Source: a virus. Taken from it: DNA of 39,352 nt. A program made the position numbers and the translations under genes. Positions within the stretch are counted from its first letter, which is position 1. Each line of letters starts with the position of its first letter. The stretch is taken from the IMG/VR virus record IMGVR_UViG_3300042507_003169, positions 1 to 39,352 of that record; one strand, written 5' to 3'. Below are positions 30,591-33,020 of the stretch, piece by piece. The notes beneath the pieces are model-generated. The model was not told the origin of the DNA. It worked only from the letters and a program-made list of their open reading frames with translations, and did not search any database.

Positions 30591-30597
30591 AAATTTT

Positions 30598-30688
30598 AGC
30601 AAGGTGGCGGAATGTAAACGCAAGGACAGCGTAATTGCTTATAAAATGGTTTCCGAAAAAGTTGTGGGTTCAAATCCCACCCTTGTAA
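30598..30688 (+). tRNA. Degenerate class II (Leu-like) tRNA
   Basis: The acceptor GCAAGG (30599-30604) pairs with CCTTGT (30681-30686). U8-G9 and a short D arm (GCG ... CGC, 30607-30621) follow the tRNA-Leu pattern. The T arm is perfect: GTGGG (30664-30668), loop TTCAAAT, CCCAC (30676-30680). The first 14 bases, GCAAGGTGGCGGAA, are identical to module 1 (30391-30404). The centre (30622-30663) is 42 nt, about ten more than needed, and I cannot place a good anticodon stem; a loop TTATAAA is the best guess. No CCA is encoded. Translating the antisense strand gives GWDLNP, a signature often seen opposite tRNA 3' ends. Confidence 0.5.
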
Positions 30689-30700
30689 ATTTTTAGCAAG

Positions 30701-31441: not shown

Positions 31442-31449
31442 TATATTTG
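31442..31449 (+). promoter_or_regulatory. Promoter -7 box of the small RNA
   Basis: TATATTTG, an exact TAnnTTTG. Transcription would start about seven bases later, at the first hairpin of the RNA. No clear -33 TTTG at the normal distance; the nearest is at 31408-31411, 30 bases upstream. Confidence 0.55.
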
Positions 31450-31455
31450 TAAAAC

Positions 31456-31549
31456 TTTTTGAATCAGGTAGGAGCGATTCAAAAGGTACTTGAAACAACA
31501 ATCTTTGTTTCACCTTGCTCAATGGACTCCTACCCGTTGAGCATTTTTT
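31456..31549 (+). ncRNA. Three-hairpin small RNA with complementary loops
   Basis: Hairpin 1: TTTTGAATC (31457-31465) with GATTCAAAA (31476-31484), loop AGGTAGGAGC. Hairpin 2: TGAAAC (31491-31496) with GTTTCA (31507-31512). Hairpin 3: TGCTCAA (31516-31522) with TTGAGCA (31537-31543), then six T. The loop 1 segment GGTAGGAG (31467-31474) is the exact reverse complement of the loop 3 segment CTCCTACC (31527-31534). All stems are perfect. The unit has its own promoter box before it and a T-run after it, and no gene overlaps it. I do not recognise it as a known RNA family. Loop 1 also contains AGGAG and loop 3 CTCCT, so ribosome-site mimicry is possible. Confidence 0.7.
31516..31549 (+). terminator. 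Hairpin 3 as intrinsic terminator
   Basis: The seven-bp stem TGCTCAA/TTGAGCA followed by TTTTTTATTTT looks like an intrinsic terminator. It could end both the small RNA and readthrough from the methyltransferase. Its loop pairs with hairpin 1, so termination could depend on that contact. Confidence 0.6.
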
Positions 31550-31560
31550 ATTTTACAAAA

Positions 31561-32046
31561 ATGGCTAAAGAAATTCAGTTAACACAGGGAAAAGTTGCAA
31601 TAGTTGACGATGCTGACTTTGAGTTTTTAAATCAGTTTAAGTGGCATGCACTTAAACTGGCTGGTAAATTTTATGTAGGAAGAAAGTTAACAGTATCTAA
31701 ATGTAAGCAAAATCAAATTTTAATGCATAGATTTATTATGAAACCTGATAAAGGTATGGTAATTGACCATTTAGATGGGAATCCTTTAAATAATCAAAAA
31801 AACAATCTTAGAATATGTACTCATTCAGAAAATATGAGAAATTGTAAAATCTCTATAAATAATACAAGTGGGTTTAAAGGTGTTTCTTTTGTTAAAAAAA
31901 ATAATACTTATAAGTCTGCAATTAAACTTAACAAAAAAACAATATATCTTGGTTATTATATCGACCCCATCGACGCCGCCCGTGCCTACAACGACGCCGC
32001 CTTGAAATATCATGGGGAATTTGCAAATCTTAATAAAATTGATTAA
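31561..32046 (+). CDS. HNH endonuclease with AP2-like DNA-binding domain
   Basis: From ATG 31561, 161 aa. The N-terminal region has a short beta start and FKWHALKLAGKFYVGR. The HNH core is LMHRFIM (54-60), VIDHLDGNPLNN (67-78) and LRICTHSENMRN (83-94). An AP2-like domain follows (NTSGFKGVSF at 101-110 and AARAYNDAALKYHGEFANLN). This is a typical free-standing phage homing endonuclease of the HNH-AP2 type. The frame is open upstream through the small RNA, but that part is not protein-like. The run of eight A inside the gene is intact. It sits directly after the small RNA, a possible insertion site. Confidence 0.9.
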   Translation: MAKEIQLTQGKVAIVDDADFEFLNQFKWHALKLAGKFYVGRKLTVSKCKQNQILMHRFIMKPDKGMVIDHLDGNPLNNQKNNLRICTHSENMRNCKISINNTSGFKGVSFVKKNNTYKSAIKLNKKTIYLGYYIDPIDAARAYNDAALKYHGEFANLNKID

Positions 32047-32048
32047 TC

Positions 32049-33020
32049 ATGATAAACATAGATACAAGGCTTTTGCCTCAGGTAACACCTGACCAATTAT
32101 TTTTACTTTGCCACATTGTTAATTTTATGAATGAGAATCGTATGTGTTTCCCTTCAAACAAAAAATTGATTGAGCAATCTGGATTCAGCGATTCAAAGAT
32201 TTTAAGGATTAAAAATGAATTGGTAACAAGAAAAATTATAAGCGTAAAACAAAGGTTTAGACCCGATGGAAGCCAAACAAGTAACCTTTATAAAATTGAA
32301 ACGGAATTTATTGGCGTATTTGTCACAGGTAAAAATATGTCAATTTTAGACACCACCCCCTTTACTGATGAAGAGGGAGGGGTATTCACCACTGAAGGGG
32401 GGACACCTTCAAGAATAAAGCCCCTTGAAGTATTACCTAATCTAAGTATTAACAAGAATAAAGTATTATCTTCTTTTGAAAACGAGTTTTCGACCTTTGA
32501 AAAAATTACAATTGATGAAAAGCAAAGTTCCAAAGTAAACCCGTTTACCGTGATTTCTAAGTTGCAAAGTGAAAAAGAAGAAAAGAAAATTTCCGGCAAA
32601 AGAAAAGAAGAAAGCGAGCCCAAACCCGAGCGCAAGCCCAACCCAACATACGAAGCATTTACCGTGTTCTGCCAAACCTTTGAACAGTTATCAGGCGCGG
32701 CGTATCCCACGGATCAAAAGGGTCATTACATCATGAGTCCGAAAGATGCTGGAGGCATGGTATATTTGTTGCGTTGGCTTGAAAAAGTTGACCGGAACAA
32801 TGACACAAATGAGGCTTTAAAAGTATTTTTACAAGCCGCTTGGAGCCTGCCTGACAAATGGTTAAAAGCAAATTTCACCCCACCCATTTTATACGGACAG
32901 GCAAACAAAGTTTACACGGCTTACCAGACATCATCCCCAGCGGCAAAGAAAAAGGCGTATGACGATGAAGCTGACAGGCTTTTGAATGAGTATATACAAA
33001 CTTTAAAACAAACACAATAA
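32049..33020 (+). CDS. Winged-helix replication initiator-like protein
   Basis: A 323-aa protein starting two bases after the HNH stop. Residues about 12-75 form a winged helix-turn-helix: TPDQLFLLCHIVNFM, then SNKKLIEQSGFSDSKILRIKNEL as recognition helices, then the wing. The middle (100-215) is a Gly/Glu/Lys-rich linker, and the C-terminal third has VYLLRWLEKVDR and AAWSLPDKW helices, similar to DnaD / phage replisome organisers. The phage encodes no visible polymerase or helicase, so this protein may bring host replication proteins to the origin. The linker DNA contains G-rich repeats and an inverted repeat that could be an origin. Confidence 0.7.
   Translation: MINIDTRLLPQVTPDQLFLLCHIVNFMNENRMCFPSNKKLIEQSGFSDSKILRIKNELVTRKIISVKQRFRPDGSQTSNLYKIETEFIGVFVTGKNMSILDTTPFTDEEGGVFTTEGGTPSRIKPLEVLPNLSINKNKVLSSFENEFSTFEKITIDEKQSSKVNPFTVISKLQSEKEEKKISGKRKEESEPKPERKPNPTYEAFTVFCQTFEQLSGAAYPTDQKGHYIMSPKDAGGMVYLLRWLEKVDRNNDTNEALKVFLQAAWSLPDKWLKANFTPPILYGQANKVYTAYQTSSPAAKKKAYDDEADRLLNEYIQTLKQTQ

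Follow-up and report, generated by a model that had tools for sequence, protein, structure and literature searches.

A 5' leader with complementary hairpin loops precedes early genes in many Bacteroidota phages

The leader in the window

The window, by which we mean the whole stretch of DNA analysed, is a 39,352-base virus record. The element under study lies at 31442-31549 and comprises, together with the two genes following it, these features:

31442..31449, + strand: promoter box TAnnTTTG of the Bacteroidota -7 type, TATATTTG (sequence)
31454..31487, + strand: HP1, a 12-bp hairpin about 5 nt downstream of the box, arms 31454-31465/31476-31487, loop AGGTAGGAGC at 31466-31475 (fold; double changes)
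31467..31474, + strand: loop-1 kissing strand GGTAGGAG, exact reverse complement of 31527-31534 and covarying with it
31491..31512, + strand: HP2, an 8-bp spacer hairpin, arms 31491-31498/31505-31512 (fold; double changes)
31516..31543, + strand: HP3, a 10-bp terminator-like hairpin, arms 31516-31525/31534-31543, loop ACTCCTAC at 31526-31533 (fold, terminator score, double changes)
31527..31534, + strand: loop-3 kissing strand CTCCTACC, whose final C also closes the HP3 stem (kissing-helix covariation)
31544..31549, + strand: T6 run immediately 3' of HP3, intrinsic-terminator-like (sequence, terminator score, conserved T columns)
31561..32046, + strand: first gene after the leader, HNH endonuclease, 161 aa (PHROG phrog_99, E = 2.4e-42)
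32049..33020, + strand: second gene after the leader, replication-initiation-like protein (phrog_270, replication initiation protein, E = 3.6e-12)

Sequence and fold confirmed the box, the three hairpins and the T6 run of the original prediction. The 90 nt holding the hairpins have a minimum free energy of -33.9 kcal/mol (z = -5.69), and none of 200 shuffled sequences was equally stable. The hairpins had been called perfect, and they are indeed continuous, but HP1 and HP3 contain G-U pairs and are not Watson-Crick throughout. The reported 8-nt reverse complementarity of loops 1 and 3 is likewise exact, but base 31534 closes the HP3 stem, so that seven of the eight matched bases lie strictly in loop 3.

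HP3 together with the T6 run was the top-scoring terminator-like site of its neighbourhood, and in alignment A1 the T columns following HP3 are invariant or almost so. The minus strand at the leader holds only a weak 9/12 sigma-70-like match, which is within shuffle expectation. The promoter box of Bacteroidota type and the terminator-like end thus fit the earlier proposal of a separate transcript, whereas its free-standing nature was not borne out: the ATG of the HNH gene (31561) follows 17 nt after HP3, which makes the element the 5' leader of an early operon transcribed rightward rather than an isolated sRNA gene. In this operon the HNH gene is followed by the replication-initiation-like gene and then by others, and relatives of the second gene are directly preceded by the leader in other phages. 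A tRNA-Tyr gene (gta anticodon) is located at 30597-30689, just upstream of a methyltransferase gene and the leader.

A family of leaders in Bacteroidota phages

The same leader was found in over 100 sequences of Bacteroidota phages, where it precedes replication, ParB-like/methylase or HNH genes. Scanning viral contigs with both loop strings resulted in 95 stretches, about one third of which were chance matches; most of the 95 share a TAnnTTTG-type box, HP1, a linker or HP2, HP3, a T-run and an ATG in a common layout. Since such a scan fixes the loops, relatives were collected by protein instead, with the replication gene, the upstream methyltransferase, HNH, and a second replication gene family as queries. 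The leader was recovered from these sets with other loops. At least 25 loop types are now represented, among them GTAGGAG, GTGATAG, CTGGACA, GTCGCAC and CGGGCAGG, and a match of 7-9 nt was kept in every leader inspected, one near-match excepted. The AGGAG and CTCCT motifs of the window, from which a decoy function had been suggested, therefore characterize just one of these types. A Shine-Dalgarno/anti-Shine-Dalgarno decoy was discarded, as the loop sequence is not conserved in homologues and Bacteroidota ribosomes ignore the Shine-Dalgarno sequence (PMC9976891).

The match between the loops does not result from the way in which leaders were chosen. In two sets selected only by box, HP1, hairpin with T-run, and ATG, complementary loops of 7-10 nt were present in 35 out of 37 and 18 out of 20 leaders. 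One of the four exceptions, L041, was a wrongly picked HP1 with the match present; the remaining three seem to have been picked by chance. When reversed sequences served as a control, three stretches were picked up by chance, none with a match longer than 4 nt. As loop-blind selection retains matches of 7-10 nt and the reversed control does not exceed 4 nt, chance can be dismissed as an explanation. Furthermore, a covariance model devoid of loop-loop information placed the leader in all 48 related whole records, at 60 strong places and with one or two copies per record. The match was kept at all inspected places of these records except position 39934 of record G024 (6-nt match plus a mismatch). 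Among the loci retrieved with the second replication gene, the detector found the leader with loop match in 37. Reading by eye covered 16 of the 21 loci that it had missed (three of the five left out were truncated); of these 16, 13 have the leader with one HP1 mismatch each and 3 lack it. HP2 is missing from some distant leader types.

Several records deserve separate mention. G024 (IMGVR_UViG_3300027971_000095) carries leaders at 1221 and 39934, at opposite contig ends, with near-identical loops GTGGACGC and GTGGACAC; its second leader, with the imperfect loop match, departs from the exact-match rule, and the pair departs from the trend towards different loops within a genome described below. 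In class B contigs (L364 7566, L118 9082) an extra hairpin with a GCCGAAAGGC or GGCGAAAGCC tetraloop precedes HP1, and a second leader downstream has the loop TTGGAAC in place of GGTAGGAG. Larger phages have the leader too, as shown by the 77-kb phage contig G053 (L080/L375), where two copies with the loops GGTAGGAG and GGTCGTAGC are separated by about 10 kb. A pattern scan of genome contigs gave 13 matches, none in Bacteroidota, the majority of which probably represent chance or GC-rich repeats. Three of the pattern matches (L289, L290, L293) in the Verrucomicrobiales MAG H5_VER1 seem to belong to a dispersed GC-rich repeat, GGTAGGAGCCGACGT.AGGAGGCTC...CTCGACTCCTACC, that has no relation to the phage leader, and Verrucomicrobia FR_27 (L288/L294) has two pattern matches on one contig.

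Leaders in isolated phages

A nucleotide search with joined leaders against isolated phages found nothing, whereas the route via protein neighbours, using a replication gene family, did find leaders. Flavobacterium phage tooticki6-1 has two copies, one with loop GTCGTCG before an endonuclease gene and one with GTGAGACG before replication genes. Upstream of the replication genes, Flavobacterium phages elemo and 11b have leaders with the loops TGAGAGC and CGGGCAGG, respectively, Cellulophaga phi13:2 and phi19:3 have CTCTCACAA, and Olleya Harreka_1 has GTGGTGG. In each of these leaders the terminator hairpin contains the exact loop partner, although HP3 is longer in several phages and the partner then sits in an inner loop. 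The leader was not seen in Elizabethkingia TCUEAP2, Bacteroides BKO1-3 and Cellulophaga Ingeline_1, nor upstream of the replication gene in Riemerella RAP44 or Porphyromonas 005b. The publication describing tooticki and its relatives does not mention a promoter, terminator, hairpin or small RNA (PMC7077304). Because these phages of Flavobacterium, Cellulophaga and Olleya are in culture, the leader is directly testable. The finding is hence more general than originally supposed, as it extends to many viruses of flavobacteria, at the starts of early-gene messages.

Covariation of stems and loops

In an alignment of 45 homologous leaders 94.7% of the cells were paired, and the covariation score was 0.552 compared to 0.201 for shuffled and at most 0.116 for slid controls. 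All four helices covary. Double changes were found in 9 out of 12 pairs of HP1, 5 out of 8 pairs of HP2 (93% of cells paired) and 10 out of 10 pairs of HP3. In the kissing helix 97.5% of the cells were paired and all 7 pairs had double changes. These 45 rows were picked by a detector that requires loop complementarity, and therefore independent support for the kissing helix comes from the loop-blind and the protein-fetched sets. That the loops would vary and still keep their match, on which the original prediction depended, was thus observed both in these double changes and in the at least 25 types when loop sequence was not used for selection. A single clean double change with the partners in step is provided by leaders L338 (GTAGACA/TGTCTAC) and L339 (CTAGACA/TGTCTAG). 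Taken as a computational result on sequences, the leader family and its predicted loop-loop pairing are well supported.

G-U pairs outnumber A-C mismatches by 34:15 in HP1, 42:8 in HP2 and 33:1 in HP3, 109:24 for HP1-HP3 together, which points to selection on the sense-strand RNA. This bears on a DNA-level element, namely a replication origin or recombination hairpins beside the replication gene. Many copies do adjoin replication-initiation genes, but copies also occur before HNH and other genes, and with the excess of G-U pairs such an element has practically no probability left. Diversifying selection is not claimed, because in a rate comparison the loops changed no faster than the HP3 stem; the two rates were about equal. 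The notion that the loops are hypervariable relative to the stems was discarded for the same reason.

Genomic context

Each of the 83 non-redundant leaders has a start codon 6-30 nt, mostly 10-18 nt, after HP3. The genes that begin there represent several unrelated families, which we read from their sequences as different kinds of probable replication initiator, ParB/methylase, HNH, helicase-HNH and small zinc-ribbon-like proteins. This diversity indicates a portable early-gene leader rather than a part of the HNH gene. The box was also found where it had not been required for selection. Among 44 such leaders, 26 have a strict TAnnTTTG no more than 28 nt from HP1 (background 1.8%), and 43 have the looser TAnnTT[TC][GA] before HP1 (background 5.8%).

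These positions bear on the function proposed first, a self-contained small RNA or a packaging RNA of the phi29 type that forms rings through its loops. The element does have its own promoter box, a T-run and complementary loops which, like those of the phi29 RNA, could link molecules into rings. Unlike that RNA, which serves packaging by the phage motor, it is an early-gene leader with a terminator: the 83 leaders precede early replication, HNH and similar genes, and no tie to terminase genes or match in Rfam was found. Almost all copies are leaders with a gene immediately after them, and this gene is not always HNH, so a free-standing sRNA is unsupported. Genomes have no more than two copies, and some combine two with different loops. 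The phi29-like role was consequently abandoned, and either variant of this proposal is very unlikely.

The spacing to the start codon, the A/T-rich stretch that follows the T-run and the location of HP1 near the presumed 5'-end would also suit a structure at the mRNA 5'-end. Here the kissing fold would protect the end of the message and leave the ribosome a U-rich landing site free of structure in front of the ATG, in bacteria whose ribosomes do not recognise or use Shine-Dalgarno pairing (PMC9976891). The U-rich stretch just 5' of the ATG could then serve translation instead of termination, which speaks against an attenuator. However, the T-run is placed precisely where a stable hairpin has its base, an intrinsic-terminator signature that a landing site does not need, and we consider this explanation improbable.

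Attenuation and the pairing of the loops

Directly visible in the sequence are the promoter box, HP1 at the presumed 5'-end, HP3 and the T-run before a start codon, and loops that remain complementary despite changing sequence. The T-run at the exact foot of the stable hairpin is conserved in relatives and represents the signature of an intrinsic terminator; its location just before the start codon suggests an attenuator. We therefore favor, with about an even chance of being right, the view that the conserved 5' leader of early units (replication, HNH or ParB-like) in Bacteroidota phages is a transcription attenuator in which pairing between loop 1 and loop 3 sets read-through in cis. A regulatory effect is inferred from the layout, and the leader probably works as a self-contained switch that controls the expression of early viral genes. 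Attenuation of the HNH gene was among the ideas put forward originally and comes nearest to this view, although not in its restriction to HNH, since other gene families are preceded by the leader too.

In this attenuator, RNA polymerase would start at HP1, and HP3 would terminate most transcripts, yielding an RNA of about 95 nt. The nascent loop-3 sequence may pair with loop 1, either as a pseudoknot or, after closure of HP3, as a kissing complex. This pairing would compete with or reshape the terminator and so set the level of downstream read-through, with either sign being possible. Feedback in trans is conceivable as well: the terminated RNA contains both loops and might bind to the leader that is transcribed next.

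The geometry of these states was explored with a rough rod model of 66 leaders. In the RNA itself, bending, fraying or HP2 melting would permit cis kissing, and some distant leader types have no HP2. With HP2 folded, a straight coaxial stack of HP1, kissing helix and HP3 in cis was bridgeable in 9 of 47 window-type leaders and in none of 19 class A leaders, while with HP2 melted it was bridgeable in all 66. A closed dimer was possible in all 66 leaders with HP2 folded, the linker bridging only about 22 A. Loop-loop duplex energies amount to about -9 to -14 kcal/mol, compared to about -6 for HP2 of the window. Geometry and energies suggest that several states of the RNA probably compete, namely a pseudoknot of nascent loop 3 with loop 1, kissing with HP2 open, and a dimer with HP2 closed. 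Since a folded HP2 seems to put strain on kissing in cis, the RNA of about 95 nt may also exert feedback in trans.

The closed dimer leads to the main rival of cis attenuation, in which the terminated RNA of about 95 nt acts mainly in trans as a self-antisense feedback or immunity RNA. Its two loops would pair with the two loops of the nascent leader, forming a closed dimer of two parallel kissing rods, and shut down the early operon. As a two-loop lock and key it would raise termination on the next nascent copy as well as in superinfecting phages that share its loop type, and the loop sequence would define a specificity group comparable to plasmid incompatibility or P4 immunity. Both complementary loops are present in one RNA, the dimer is feasible in every leader modelled, and the loops have diversified into many types. 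In addition, genomes with two leaders mostly have different loops (11 of 12 records, and also tooticki and class B). On the other hand, intramolecular pairing is usually favored, and the loops evolve no faster than the HP3 stem. The two leader positions use largely separate pools of loops, so that the difference within a genome is no clear avoidance, and G024 has two near-identical loop sets. For these reasons the difference was not accepted as proof that two copies per genome must be orthogonal. We regard action in trans as a possible, although clearly less probable, explanation, which still ranks ahead of a leader for translation or stability and of the antitermination discussed below. If it were correct, it would imply dosage-sensing feedback, RNA-defined immunity groups and at least 25 natural orthogonal specificities.

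Relation to known regulatory RNAs

Attenuators of plasmids of the pT181/pIP501 type resemble the phage leader in being 5' leaders of replication genes with an intrinsic terminator before the gene, kissing hairpins and a specificity set by the loops. In these plasmids the partner is supplied by an antisense RNA that is transcribed separately from the opposite strand, and one arm of the terminator pairs with an antiterminator strand (PMC4878617). The phage leader, in contrast, contains both partner loops itself. It shares with pT181 an intrinsic terminator (HP3 and T6) in leaders before replication genes, but an upstream antiterminator strand for the 5' arm of the terminator was not found, the covarying partner being the terminator loop. 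The MFE and centroid folds of the window leader consist of three separate hairpins and lack an alternative antiterminator stem, which counts against attenuation.

A further comparison is with HK022 put RNA, a cis-acting RNA of about 70 nt with two stem-loops and with residues critical for binding of the beta' zinc domain (PMC9378689). By analogy, the folded leader would bind the elongating RNA polymerase and make it resist its own and later terminators. The start of an early transcript, a small multi-hairpin RNA and at most two copies per genome are shared with HK022 putL and putR (PMC9378689). But HK022 put needs specific residues, whereas in the phage leader the loops and many stem bases vary and pairing alone is kept. 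Moreover, the leader has three hairpins and itself ends in a terminator-like hairpin with a T-run, and we think antitermination of this kind rather unlikely.

The immunity systems of P4 (CI RNA, seqA-seqC) and P1 (c4 RNA) also combine a replication-operon leader, termination, a short RNA complementary to its own leader and group specificity. P4 CI RNA is a processed separate RNA that pairs with other leader segments; such segments were not seen in the phage leader. Two short leader hairpins able to kiss by their loops are likewise known from the guanidine-II riboswitch, whose short conserved loops bind guanidinium (PMC7544219). The phage loops, in contrast, comprise 7-9 nt, are variable and lack a conserved ligand pocket.

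Searching Rfam 15 gave no match above the gathering threshold in the window and only tRNAs in 11 homologous loci, in agreement with the original statement that no known RNA family has this layout. The best sub-threshold matches, far below the cut-off, were plastid 3'UTR hairpins and unrelated sRNAs. Full-text literature searches, which covered few subscription papers, resulted in no published description of the leader. We would class it as a new RNA family of leader/attenuator type, which appears to be undescribed and widespread, in a phylum for whose phages hardly anything is known about gene regulation. Its at least 25 kissing pairs in one architecture constitute a natural, ready-made library with which to study the control of an intrinsic terminator by intramolecular kissing and to construct orthogonal RNA switches.

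Loop 3 of the window (31526-31533) and of other homologues of the GGTAGGAG type, GACTCCTAC, matches what we take to be a universal 16S rRNA sequence around position 338. Mimicry of 16S rRNA was rejected since the loop sequence varies among homologues. The resemblance is probably coincidental, and other loop types do not have it.
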